Part shown: one piece after another, positions 37,174 to 55,086 of the stretch
How the letters are laid out: each line of letters starts with the position of its first letter
Position numbering within the stretch: the stretch's first letter is position 1
NCBI RefSeq assembly: GCF_017498505.1
Contig: NZ_CP071798.1
Span: 434,001 to 498,000 of the forward strand
Reading direction: 5' to 3'
DNA: 64,000 bases
DNA from: Sporosarcina sp. Te-1
GTDB lineage: Bacteria > Bacillota > Bacilli > Bacillales_A > Planococcaceae
Notes under the pieces: generated by a model
Databases searched by the model: none
Seen by the model: only the letters and a program-made list of their open reading frames with translations
Told to the model about the DNA's origin: nothing
Translations under genes and position numbers: made by a program

Positions 37174-37245
37174 ATAAGGCAATAGGGTACTGATTCGTCG
37201 GAATCTTACACATTTTTCGCAAGCAATCGAATATCGCGGATGATT

Positions 37246-37442
37246 GAGCGGGGAGAGCACGCATTAGGCGTCGCCGAAGGAGCAAGTAACGAGGTTATGA
37301 ATCTCTCAGGTAACAAGACCCGTTCATGACGCATCTCTGGAGAGCGCCGATTTAAACGGCCACCAACGAGGAAAGCCGCAAGGTCAAACTTTCAGGTACA
37401 CGGACAGAGGTTCCTTTATATAGGGGACTTCTGTCTTTTTTT
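37246..37442 (+). promoter_or_regulatory. Tandem glycine riboswitch with terminator
   Basis: Aptamer 1 (about 37246-37345) has GAGCGGGGAGAGC, GTCGCCGAAGGAGCAAG, CTCTCAGGTAACAAGACCCG and CATCTCTGGAGAGC. Aptamer 2 (about 37346-37410) has GCCACCAACGAGGAAAGCC and TTTCAGGTACACGGACAGAGG. These are the conserved blocks of gcvT-type riboswitches. The terminator GACAGAGGTTCC/GGGGACTTCTGTC (37403-37435) shares its 5' arm with aptamer 2 and ends in seven T residues. Glycine binding should prevent termination and turn on glycine cleavage. Confidence 0.95.
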
Positions 37443-50940: not shown

Positions 50941-51498
50941 ATGATTTCAGTAAACGAATTTAAAACAGGTTTGACAATTGAAGTGGACGGGGATATTTGG
51001 CGTGTTATTGATTTTCAACATGTTAAACCAGGCAAGGGCGCAGCATTCGTACGTTCTAAATTACGTAACCTTCGTTCCGGCAACGTGAATGAGAAAACAT
51101 TCCGCGCGGGTGAGAAAGTCGAAAAGGCCCAAATCGACAACCGCCGCATGCAATACCTGTATGCAAACGGGGATGACCATGTATTCATGGACAATGAATC
51201 CTACGAACAAATCGAGCTGTCTTCCAATCAGATCGAAGAAGAATTGAAATACTTGAAAGAAAACATGGAAGTCCATATCGTCTCTTACAAAGATGAAGTA
51301 CTAGGTGTCGAGCTTCCATCGACTGTTACGTTGGAAGTCGTAGAAACAGAACCAGGTATCAAAGGAGATACAGCGAGTGGCGGTTCAAAACCTGCCAAAA
51401 TGGAAACAGGCCTCGTCGTTCAAGTTCCGTTCTTTGTCAATACTGGTGATAAACTTATCATCAACACTGAAGAAGGCGAGTACGTCTCAAGAGCATAA
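50941..51498 (+). CDS. efp: Elongation factor P
   Basis: Relieves ribosome stalling at polyproline. The 185 aa three-domain protein has K32 at the loop tip (KPGKGAAFV), the residue 5-aminopentanolylated in B. subtilis, and the closing [18 protein letters not shown]. The ATG follows GGAGGAAACAGC, 22 bases after yqhT. Confidence 0.96.
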
Positions 51499-51552: not shown

Positions 51553-51607
51553 GTTCTCCTGTTTTTCCAAAGGCAAATTCAATGAAGGAGAAACTAAAGA
51601 CAACATC

Positions 51608-51634
51608 ATAATTCCAAGCCGCACCTCATACGTT
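51608..51634 (+). promoter_or_regulatory. Possible sigma-E promoter of the spoIIIA cluster
   Basis: ATAATT (51608-51613), 13 bases, and CATACGTT (51627-51634) resemble the mother-cell sigma-E consensus ATATT-N13/15-CATACAAT. Transcription would start close to the ribosome site, which weakens the call. Confidence 0.3.
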
Positions 51635-51655
51635 AAAACAGGAGGGGGAAACCGT

Positions 51656-51865
51656 TTGGAATTGAGTGACTTATTGAGGATTGCGGGGATTGGTCTCGTC
51701 ATCGGTTTTCTACATGTATTTTTTGAGCAGACCGGAAAAAAGGAATTCTCGTTTTTCCTTTTCTTCCTTGCTTATATATACATTGCCGTTGAAATGCTCC
51801 GTTTCCTGCGAATCTTTTTCGCAGAGATTTCCGATTTTTTCCAATGGCTTTCGCTGGCGATGTAG
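51656..51865 (+). CDS. spoIIIAC: Stage III sporulation protein AC
   Basis: A 69 aa membrane protein with two segments (about 6-24 and 29-50). LLRIAGIGLVIGFLHVFFEQTGKKEF is family-typical (read in two parts: the first segment, then QTGKKEF). It is part of the SpoIIIA channel in the engulfed forespore. The TTG at 51656 lies behind GGAGGGGG. It is the first gene of the cluster here: spoIIIAA and spoIIIAB, which precede it in B. subtilis, are absent. Confidence 0.88.
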   Translation: MELSDLLRIAGIGLVIGFLHVFFEQTGKKEFSFFLFFLAYIYIAVEMLRFLRIFFAEISDFFQWLSLAM

Positions 51866-52243
51866 ATGTTCACATTATTCCAGATCATTGTCATCTATGT
51901 TGTCTTGCTCATTGTGGCATATGTAGCTCCGGGCTTAAAACCAATCCTATATGCCGCCATCTTTTTCATCCTTCTGCTGTATATCTTCAGTATGTTCCTG
52001 TTGCCTTTCAGTCAAACCATCATTGAATTATTCGGTATTGTGCCCGGCCCCTACGTCAAATTGCTTGTCGGCAGCGCCCTGCTTTTCGTGCTCTCGGAAA
52101 CGGTGGCGATGCATATTAGGGAGGAAGGGTACGGGTCCATCGCTTCATTATCCCAGTTGGCGATGAAGATTGTCATTTTGACATTATGGATTCCACATTT
52201 GAAAGCAATGATTGAAACACTTTCTTCACTAATCACTAAATGA
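51866..52243 (+). CDS. spoIIIAD: Stage III sporulation protein AD
   Basis: A 125 aa membrane protein with four segments, starting directly after the spoIIIAC stop. FQIIVIYVVLLIVAYVAPG and the ETVAMHIREEGY segment are recognisable. Length is near the family norm (about 133). Confidence 0.86.
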   Translation: MFTLFQIIVIYVVLLIVAYVAPGLKPILYAAIFFILLLYIFSMFLLPFSQTIIELFGIVPGPYVKLLVGSALLFVLSETVAMHIREEGYGSIASLSQLAMKIVILTLWIPHLKAMIETLSSLITK

Positions 52244-52258
52244 ACGGAAGAAAATCCT

Positions 52259-53158
52259 ATGTTGTCATTTTTGTTATCTGTTGTTGGAACGGTGCTGTCC
52301 TCTTTCATTGTCGTTTTGCTTGCGACGTTCATCGTCCTGCTGCTCGATTTTCTTTTTCCTTCCTTTTCCAAATGGACGAGGCTATTGCTTTTTATCGTGG
52401 TCATCTCGGTTGTGCTGCGTCCTGCCTTTGATCAATTTATCGCGATCCGCGATATTACCCATACTGTCGCTATGACTTTCATTTCAGTCTATCCACTGCT
52501 TACGGCGAGTATTATGGCATCCGGCGGAACGTTCGGTCTTCTTAATTTCCAGCCGGCCATGCTGCTGTTTGCGAACGGCATCGTGGTCTTATCTGAAAAG
52601 CTCTTGATTCCTATACTGGCTGCGGCACTTCTATTCGACCTCCTATCCAGACTGCAGCCGGCAATGGCTTTCACAAAGTTGTCGGAATTGCTGCGAACAG
52701 GCCTGCTCGGTGCGGTATCCGCCATTGTTGCGGCCTATGCCATTTTCATTACAACAGGCGGCACGATGTCTTGGGCATTATCCGGTGTCACTAGCGAACC
52801 AATCAAAGAGTTGATCAAGCAGAATATCCCGCTGATCGGGTCGCTAATGACCGATAGTCTAGGAGCGATGGGAAGGTATACATCAGGTGCCAGTGTCTTC
52901 ATAGGAGGCTGGTTGATCATGACCATATGGACAGTGGCCCTGCTGCCGACACTTAAGACGTTAGTGACAGCCTTTCTCTATCGATGGACAGCCGCTCTAA
53001 TCGAACCGTTTGCCAATGAAGATATTACCGGGACCCTCGATGATATCGGGAAGACGCTTTTCGTGTTATGTGCGATTTCCTTCTTAGTCGCATTTGCATT
53101 CATCTATACAGCGATCTTTTCGATTATCCTCATCAAATTGATGACAAGTGTGAAATGA
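52259..53158 (+). CDS. spoIIIAE: Stage III sporulation protein AE, lacking the N-terminal domain
   Basis: A 299 aa polytopic membrane protein resembling the membrane part of SpoIIIAE (YPLLTASIMASGGTFG, then IPILAAALLF). The B. subtilis protein is about 399 aa and begins with a signal peptide and an extracellular segment of about 100 residues; both are missing here. The ATG has only a weak ribosome site (GGAAG). The next gene starts directly at the stop. Confidence 0.83.
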   Translation: MLSFLLSVVGTVLSSFIVVLLATFIVLLLDFLFPSFSKWTRLLLFIVVISVVLRPAFDQFIAIRDITHTVAMTFISVYPLLTASIMASGGTFGLLNFQPAMLLFANGIVVLSEKLLIPILAAALLFDLLSRLQPAMAFTKLSELLRTGLLGAVSAIVAAYAIFITTGGTMSWALSGVTSEPIKELIKQNIPLIGSLMTDSLGAMGRYTSGASVFIGGWLIMTIWTVALLPTLKTLVTAFLYRWTAALIEPFANEDITGTLDDIGKTLFVLCAISFLVAFAFIYTAIFSIILIKLMTSVK

Positions 53159-53335
53159 GTGAACCCTATCGTCCAAATTTTGAATGGAATACTGTTGTTG
53201 TCTGTTCTATCTGTCGTAATGCCGCTATTTCTTCCCGATGAACTGGAAGACGACTTTCTGGCAATCATGAAAATTGCAATGGGCATTTGGATAATTCATT
53301 CGTTCTCCACATTTTTTGGTCATAGCTTGTTCTGA
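53159..53335 (+). CDS. spoIIIAF: Truncated SpoIIIAF-like two-segment membrane peptide
   Basis: GTG at 53159, directly after the spoIIIAE stop, opens a 58 aa frame: a hydrophobic segment, the turn LFLPDELEDD, an amphipathic stretch and a second hydrophobic segment (MGIWIIHSFSTFF). That equals the N-terminal hairpin of SpoIIIAF in place and pattern, but the C-terminal ring-forming domain of about 150 residues is gone. The assignment rests on position and topology only. Confidence 0.55.
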   Translation: MNPIVQILNGILLLSVLSVVMPLFLPDELEDDFLAIMKIAMGIWIIHSFSTFFGHSLF

Positions 53336-53400
53336 CCAAGCATACTGTTAAACATAGATGACTACCCATATCCGGCTCAAAGAAATGAAATGGTGATGAA

Positions 53401-53829
53401 ATGCAGAAACCAAAAAAGAAAACATTTCCTTTATTGTTAGGTTCCATTGTTGTACTTGTCATCATATTCATCAACACGACATTAGGATCGTTTGGGGGGG
53501 AGAAAGGAAAGGGGGAGGAGAGCCGGGAATATGCAGAACTTGAAAAGGCATTGATGAGTATTGAAGGGATTGGGGATGTGATCATCTATCCTCATTATGA
53601 AAAGGGCGAGAAGACTGCCGACCCGCTCTCGGACTATTTTTCACTGTCCAGCCGTTCCAATAAGACAGGCAATCCGCTGCAGGGGATATTAGTTGTAGTG
53701 GAGGGAGCAGATGATATGAGGATGAAAAATAGATTGAAGCAAATCCTTTCATCGGTACTTCAGCTGCCTGAACATCGAATTGTCATCGAAGAAATGAAGA
53801 AAAGGGGGACTCAACTTGAAAGCGAATAA
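53401..53829 (+). CDS. spoIIIAG: Stage III sporulation protein AG, short form
   Basis: A 142 aa protein with one N-terminal membrane anchor (about 9-27) and the ring-building motif domain (LEKALMSIEGIGDVII ... GILVVVEGADDMRMKNRLK ... LQLPEHRIVI). B. subtilis SpoIIIAG is about 229 aa and forms a large ring in the intermembrane space; the N-terminal cytoplasmic region and part of the middle region are absent. Overlaps spoIIIAH by 14 bases. Confidence 0.82.
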   Translation: MQKPKKKTFPLLLGSIVVLVIIFINTTLGSFGGEKGKGEESREYAELEKALMSIEGIGDVIIYPHYEKGEKTADPLSDYFSLSSRSNKTGNPLQGILVVVEGADDMRMKNRLKQILSSVLQLPEHRIVIEEMKKRGTQLESE

Positions 53830-54352
53830 ACGAACAGTGTGGTTTTTAACTCTACTTAGCCTCGTAGCGGTCATCTCCATCTATTATTTGAATAGAGAAG
53901 CGCCGATGCCTTTTGATGGACTTGCGATTTTTGGAGATAAAAATTCGGATGCCATTACATTGACCAGCACGCAAGATGAAACGAAGCCAGTCTTTGCCGA
54001 GTCTGTCCTATTTGAAGAAATGCGGATGCAAGTCCAAGACGAGCGAAGCAAGTTGAAGGAGCAATTGCAGGCAAAGACACTCTCCTCGGATTATACCGTC
54101 GAGGAAAAGAATGAAGCATATAATGCGTTGGAGGATTTAACGAAGCAAACGTCAGCTGAAGCCTTAATGGAAATGCAAATTAAAGCGTTAGGTTATCCGG
54201 AAGTGTTTGTCCGGAAAGAGGACGGGCGAGTCGAAGTGACTGTTCTATCTCAAGAGGGACATTCCAAAGAGTTGGCGGATGAAATCACGAAATACATCAT
54301 GGCCAGCTGGGACGATACAGGCACGGTGAAGGTAGACTTCACAGGAAACTGA
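53816..54352 (+). CDS. spoIIIAH: Stage III sporulation protein AH
   Basis: A 178 aa protein with an N-terminal anchor (about 8-24), a coiled linker, and the C-terminal domain that pairs with SpoIIQ across the forespore membranes (KALGYPEVFVRKEDGRVEVTV). Somewhat shorter than B. subtilis SpoIIIAH (about 218 aa), with the core domain intact. The start overlaps spoIIIAG. Confidence 0.86.
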   Translation: MKANKRTVWFLTLLSLVAVISIYYLNREAPMPFDGLAIFGDKNSDAITLTSTQDETKPVFAESVLFEEMRMQVQDERSKLKEQLQAKTLSSDYTVEEKNEAYNALEDLTKQTSAEALMEMQIKALGYPEVFVRKEDGRVEVTVLSQEGHSKELADEITKYIMASWDDTGTVKVDFTGN

Positions 54353-54567: not shown

Positions 54568-55086
54568 ATGTTAAAAATTCAAGAAATTCGTGAAATAATT
54601 AAATTGATTGATCAATCATCTATTGAAAAATTTACATTTGAATCTGAAGGTACGAAAATTAAACTTGAAAAAGCTGGCATCCAACAAGTCGTCCAAGCAC
54701 CGCAAGCGCCGATAACTGAGCAAGCGCCTTTGCAGCAGCCAGTAGCGGAACAGTCGAAAGAAGTACCAGCAGCCGCAACACAAGTGGAAAACAAAGAACA
54801 ACAACCAGCAGCCGCCCCGATTGAACAAGTTCAAGAGGATGCCTCGCTGCACAAGATCACTTCCCCGATGGTCGGAACATTCTACAAAGCTGCCTCGCCG
54901 GATGCAGATCCATATGTCCAAAAAGGCGATAAAGTAAAATCGGAATCGGTTGTTTGCATCGTCGAGGCGATGAAACTGTTCAACGAAATCGAAGCCGAAG
55001 TTTCCGGAGAAATCGTGGAGGTTCTTGTGGAAGATGGGCAGCTCGTCGAATACGGACAACCTCTCTTCCTCGTCAAAGAGAATTGA
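54568..55086 (+). CDS. accB: Biotin carboxyl carrier protein of acetyl-CoA carboxylase
   Basis: Carries biotin between the carboxylase and transferase parts of ACC for fatty acid synthesis. The 172 aa product has the N-terminal [14 protein letters not shown] segment, an A/P/Q/E-rich flexible linker (about 42-88) and a C-terminal lipoyl/biotinyl domain with K136 in VEAMKLF. The ATG follows AGGAGAATCGAGTC. accC follows after 13 bases. Confidence 0.95.

Follow-up and report, generated by a model that had tools for sequence, protein, structure and literature searches.

The spoIIIA cluster of Sporosarcina sp. Te-1 lacks two genes and encodes three shortened subunits, and it is probably the normal spoIIIA operon of its family, the Planococcaceae, specifying a functional, reduced SpoIIIA-SpoIIQ (A-Q) complex from which SpoIIIAA and its partner SpoIIIAB were lost once, in the ancestor of the family. 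SpoIIIAA is treated as the motor of the SpoIIIA-SpoIIQ complex. The cluster lies in a 64,000-nucleotide stretch (the window), positions 434001-498000 of a complete one-contig genome of 4,297,762 bases (4.3 Mb). An earlier note on this DNA had proposed either a reduced but working mother cell-forespore channel or a cluster in early decay, its lineage being on the way to losing sporulation. The first alternative is supported by conservation across the family, purifying selection, and sigma-E-like promoters, by regulators and a SpoIIQ that are intact, and by endospores reported in strains with the same cluster.

The order of genes in the window, all on the forward strand, is efp, spoIIIAC, spoIIIAD, spoIIIAE, a 58-aa spoIIIAF, spoIIIAG, spoIIIAH and an accB-like gene. 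The upstream neighbor efp (50941..51498) encodes elongation factor P (NCBIfam TIGR00038, 1.7e-81). A spacer of about 157 nt, measured from the efp stop at 51498, separates it from the TTG start of spoIIIAC at 51656, which is preceded by AGGAGG; the cluster thus opens at spoIIIAC, essentially at the distance of 158 bases noted earlier. spoIIIAC (51656..51865) encodes 69 aa and matches both Pfam PF06686 (1.9e-5) and NCBIfam TIGR02848 (1.9e-6), and spoIIIAD (51866..52243), with 125 aa, matches PF06686 (1.7e-6). The spoIIIAE product (52259..53158; 299 aa) is without its N-terminal segment and matches PF09546 (6.4e-27) from profile position 41. Mini-spoIIIAF (53159..53335), recognized by hhalign to outgroup AF, has a GTG start directly 3' of the AE stop, and its 58 aa comprise two membrane segments only. 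spoIIIAG (53401..53829; TIGR02830, 1.5e-10) encodes 142 aa with a membrane helix and a predicted ring-building fold that is devoid of the cup-forming insertion, and spoIIIAH (53816..54352; PF12685, 7e-17) encodes 178 aa. Downstream lies the accB-like gene for a biotin carboxyl carrier protein (54568..55086), an ORF with the biotinyl motif EAMKL, which occupies the same place in most related loci that extend far enough to include it. AC, AD, AE, AG, and AH were identified by Pfam and NCBIfam, with scores mostly below the NCBIfam equivalog cut-offs. The closest named relatives are also Sporosarcina (S. cyprini, Sporosarcina sp. NCCP-2222, and S. luteola S00266), with 93% AE identity. Elsewhere in the window, at 37240-37331, a glycine riboswitch aptamer was recognized (Rfam RF00504, 65.7 bits).

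Six-frame searches covered this genome and 150 further genomes of the family (151 in total), with B. subtilis as the control, which exceeded the cut-off in the AA, AB, and AF searches alike. Neither SpoIIIAA nor SpoIIIAB passed the cut-off in any of the 151 genomes, and no full-length SpoIIIAF was found in the complete genome of the strain itself. The absence of AA and AB, first noted from the cluster, therefore extends to the genome and the family, and the search for both genes and for a full-length AF elsewhere in the genome, suggested at the time, recovered none of them. The sole AF match over the cut-off among the 151 genomes was partial and was not accepted as a true AF; it lies in a frame of 299 aa, about 100 kb away from the cluster of that genome. 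Weak SpoIIIAA matches corresponded to P-loop frames that were RadA-like (about 430 aa) or, in other genera, ComGA-like (about 340-370 aa), and were rejected by their length and partial match. A search of the efp-AC spacers of 22 loci for remnants or a replacement of AA and AB gave nothing resembling either gene, and the spacer of this genome holds no new gene. In several other genera (seven loci), a gene encoding a nitronate monooxygenase-like protein of 333-339 aa is located between efp and spoIIIAC.

The short AE is present in 114 of the 151 family genomes, in every case as a single open frame without internal stops; the remaining 37 have no AE match whatever, and several genera are without the whole cluster. 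In an order-level search AE was found in 142 of 200 genomes and AA in none, all of them belonging, as far as listed, to the Planococcaceae. Across the class, 237 of 349 genomes have AE and 216 have AA. About 215 AE-positive genomes of this class sample from outside the family, by comparison of the listed genomes by eye, also carry AA, and none of the 21 AE-positive family genomes does; in a single fragmented draft, AA occurs but AE does not. The loss is thus confined to one lineage and, since AE and AA co-occur almost perfectly elsewhere in the class, it appears ancestral: the simplest reading of these sequences is that AA and AB were lost once, in the ancestor of the family, alongside a strong divergence of AE. 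Family AE proteins, in which the N-terminal part is usually missing, score 67-114 bits, versus mostly about 340-375 bits for the outgroup rows listed, with frames mostly of 390-430 aa.

Within the family the reduced form is nearly uniform. The gene order from AC to AH is constant across 48 loci, and in the window plus 72 named loci the lengths are 62-64 aa for AC (counted from a conserved codon), 123-127 for AD, 133-148 for AG, and 176-184 for AH; AE has a median of 299 aa, with one outlying value of 35 aa (locus L198). Some loci deserve separate mention. One genome (G053; 87% complete, 160 contigs) has two diverged spoIIIA clusters on different contigs, reflecting a duplication or a mixed assembly. 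A record titled Arthrobacter beigongshangensis REN13 contains a Sporosarcina-type cluster (AE identity 71%) and is probably misnamed or contaminated. In another genus of the family (g2), a single genome, G020, carries a cluster of the reduced type whose AE is divergent (27% identity), and the other listed genomes of that genus have no AE.

The shortening of AE, AF, and AG observed earlier was confirmed: the 299, 58, and 142 aa are real reductions, because the outgroup frames are much longer (about 390-480, 205-270, and 195-250 aa, respectively). The hhalign alignment of AE with outgroup AE begins at column 173 of 462. In several genomes of two genera, the match to the AE profile continues 5' of the AE frame, across a single in-frame TGA or TAA stop; this extension may be a vestige of the N-terminus that was lost. 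The structure model of AE (pLDDT 73) had no useful PDB match, the best rows being helical bundles at Z of about 10.

The 58-aa AF gave no match with standard models, and its homology to the membrane-spanning N-terminus of outgroup AF was seen only in profile-profile comparison (hhalign probability 94.6, E 6.5e-8). At 73 of 73 loci a corresponding hydrophobic frame, encoding a hairpin of 45-59 aa, separates AE from AG. No soluble ring domain of SpoIIIAF was found at these loci; judged by profile and position, AF survives in the family as a two-helix membrane hairpin and nothing else. The alignment of AG with the ring-building region of its outgroup counterparts (E 5e-18) has a gap at the outgroup insertion, where a loop of about 25 residues, with no strands predicted, takes the place of a much longer segment. 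AG matches SpoIIIAG of 5wc3 by phmmer (1.3e-4). The AlphaFold2 model has a core pLDDT of about 90, and its best match is again SpoIIIAG 5wc3 (Z 9.2, 79 residues). The modeling proposed earlier to evaluate ring assembly thus yielded a predicted ring-building fold for the single AG subunit, from which the cup-forming insertion is missing. In the 30-mer ring of SpoIIIAG, the insertion in the ring-building motif builds most of the "cup" (PMC6934232) and forms a cylindrical beta-barrel (PMC8092281), so a ring built of mini-AG would be without the barrel. AH matches the SpoIIIAH of the SpoIIQ complex 3uz0 by phmmer (1.4e-11).

The cluster also has putative promoters, recognized by a sigma-E-like consensus (ATA, spacer, CATA-NNN-T) that we take to be general for sigma-E promoters. 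One motif, TCATAAT-N14-CATACGTT (51606..51634, forward strand), lies ahead of spoIIIAC; a corresponding motif is found in 46 of 61 efp-AC spacers (shuffle mean 2.1), in nearly all cases 65-69 nt 5' of the same AC codon. The second, TCATAGC-N14-CATACTGT (53320..53348, forward strand), lies 5' of spoIIIAG; 67 of the 73 loci have such a motif, against a shuffle mean of 0.8. From the conservation of both motifs, the cluster appears either to have remained under mother-cell control when AA and AB were lost or to have come back under it later. An internal promoter ahead of AG is known in B. subtilis and C. difficile (PMC6934232; PMC4605598).

Selection on the remaining genes was estimated by the Nei-Gojobori method against the three closest relatives. 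The dN/dS values, which are rough as some dS values are near or above 1, were about 0.03 for AC, 0.02-0.03 for AD, 0.03-0.05 for AE, 0.05-0.07 for AH, 0.10-0.18 for AG, and 0.17-0.20 for AF, compared with 0.01-0.02 for efp and 0.11-0.12 for accB. Strong purifying selection thus acts on AC-AH, and the relaxed selection considered earlier as a sign of simple decay was not borne out. A separate observation concerns synonymous sites, whose divergence is strongly lowered at 53200-53850 of the window, covering the end of mini-AF and spoIIIAG and mostly the 5' half of AG. Against the closest relatives, 5-7 of 55-57 four-fold sites differ in AG and 70-78 of about 150 in AE. Of seven Sporosarcina groups, at least six show lower synonymous divergence in AG than in AE, and the amino-acid divergence of AG is not low. 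Neither a conserved overlapping frame nor an RNA structure signal was found in AG to explain this dip.

Beyond the cluster, the genome has intact frames for Spo0A, SigF, SigE, SigG, SpoIIGA, SpoIIAB, SpoIID, a SpoIIQ orthologue, and SpoIVB, together with a SigK candidate, SpoIIID, and a spoVAC-D-EB operon, so that the main sporulation regulators and SpoIIQ, which the earlier note had proposed to look for, were found. The SpoIIQ orthologue matches 3tuf_B (3.8e-27) and NF053738 (2.9e-48, under the cut-off of that model). A SpoIIM-domain protein of 200 aa (G000:C1:2752557-2753093; L212 2025-2627; PF01944, 63 bits) was not counted as the sporulation SpoIIM, because it has no NCBIfam match at 1e-5 and only 12 of the 151 family genomes contain such a domain match. 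Chloroform was used to select for spores in the isolation of Sporosarcina strains A4 and A15, both with the reduced form of the cluster, and the two strains are reported to form endospores (PMC10818898). According to two papers, spores are also formed by Lysinibacillus sphaericus and further members of the family in spite of the missing genes (PMC7924749; PMC3533761); the first of these also reports GerM as absent in Sporosarcina.

As the cluster is intact and conserved across a family with reported spore-formers, it is probably a working machine and not a decaying one. We infer the following course for its reduction, and with it the assembly, transport, and energy source of what remains. The ancestor of the family would have lost the ATPase SpoIIIAA and SpoIIIAB in a single event, and the same lineage would also have lost the soluble ring domain of AF, the cup-forming insertion of AG, and the N-terminal segment of AE. 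This would leave a membrane core of AC, AD, AE, and mini-AF, plus the ring-type domains of AG and AH facing SpoIIQ on the forespore side. The core might then serve as a passive or ion-gradient-driven conduit supporting the forespore, or at a minimum form part of an essential membrane complex; AH-SpoIIQ would keep the membranes together, and no ATP would be hydrolyzed by a dedicated motor. A more far-reaching version, which we put forward tentatively as a serious possibility, is that the whole endospore-forming family runs its mother cell-forespore channel motor-free, through a minimal passive or ion-gradient-driven conduit of AC, AD, AE, mini-AF, AG, AH, and SpoIIQ. Against motor-free operation, deletion of AA or AB in B. 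subtilis cuts sporulation to about 0.001-0.003% (PMC12720343). In C. difficile, a Walker B mutant of AA is only about three-fold down, the ATP-binding motif being far more important than the hydrolysis motif (PMC4605598), which implies that ATP hydrolysis is not equally needed everywhere. The strong divergence of AE also means that its function could have changed.

The main rivals of a working conduit are a purely structural role and a replacement ATPase. On the structural account, no transport would be left and the cluster would act as a zipper or scaffold at the engulfing membranes through AH-SpoIIQ, the forespore being nurtured by another route. This is unlikely, although the soluble parts preserved best are AH and SpoIIQ, the cup-forming insertion has gone from AG, and AE has diverged strongly; the integral membrane proteins AC, AD, and AE, which have no obvious role in a zipper, are yet those under the strongest selection (dN/dS 0.02-0.05). 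It is also rather improbable that SpoIIIAA has been replaced by an ATPase from another locus, either unrelated to it or highly diverged. An ATPase without sequence similarity would escape the search, and the SpoIIIAA model does weakly match other P-loop proteins; however, the efp-AC spacer of this genome contains no new gene, that of other genera mainly the nitronate monooxygenase-like gene, and, because AB has also been lost and AF and AG have shed their soluble parts, loss of a whole module fits better than replacement of one subunit.

Two further explanations carry far less weight. Early decay, with sporulation being lost from the lineage, would account for the missing genes, which are essential in B. 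subtilis, and for the absence of the whole cluster from several genera of the family, but it is highly improbable: none of the 114 AE frames is interrupted, dN/dS is low, the promoter motifs are conserved, the regulators are intact, and relatives are reported to form spores. For the family, the uninterrupted AE, the dN/dS values, and the reported spores already contradict decay. That AA and AB were simply missed through an assembly or annotation error, as a 2012 survey suspected for L. sphaericus (PMC3533761), is hardly credible, being refuted by the six-frame search of a complete one-contig genome and 150 relatives with a positive control, and by the result for the order.

If a reduced, working complex is the correct reading, this conserved natural version without motor, AB, AF ring domain, and AG cup would mark the dispensable parts of the machine and offer a minimal system for work on structure and transport. 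Should the channel indeed be motor-free, ATP hydrolysis would be accessory rather than central to the A-Q machine. Short, diverged versions of this kind also escape equivalog models and presence/absence tables, as with AF, which was counted as lost.

The absence of AA, AB, and a recognizable AF in Planococcaceae is already published. The accessible text of the two reports (PMC7924749, from 2021; PMC3533761, from 2012, on L. sphaericus) describes it in spore-forming Sporosarcina, Lysinibacillus, Solibacillus, and relatives, AF being counted as absent in them, and the 2012 paper put aside its L. sphaericus genome as unreliable. In the same text of these two open-licence papers, the AF hairpin, the loss of the AG cup insertion, the short AE, the promoter directly before AC, the selection data, and the single ancestral loss with its near one-to-one AE/AA pattern were not found. 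With the B. subtilis A-Q complex the Sporosarcina version shares the arrangement of AC-AH, flanked by efp and the accB side, the partners AH and SpoIIQ, the predicted ring-building fold of AG, and, as putative motifs, a sigma-E-type promoter with an internal one before AG. It differs in having no SpoIIIAA or SpoIIIAB, an AF that is a membrane hairpin, an AG without the cup insertion, and an AE without the N-terminal segment. In the SpoIIIA-SpoIIQ system of C. difficile, AA hydrolysis likewise appears less important, but SpoIIIAA is kept and its ATP-binding motif is needed (PMC4605598). The mini-AG model also shares its ring-building fold (Z 8-9) with the flagellar and type III MS-ring proteins FliF, PrgK, and EscJ, which are different proteins, the likeness being one of fold only.
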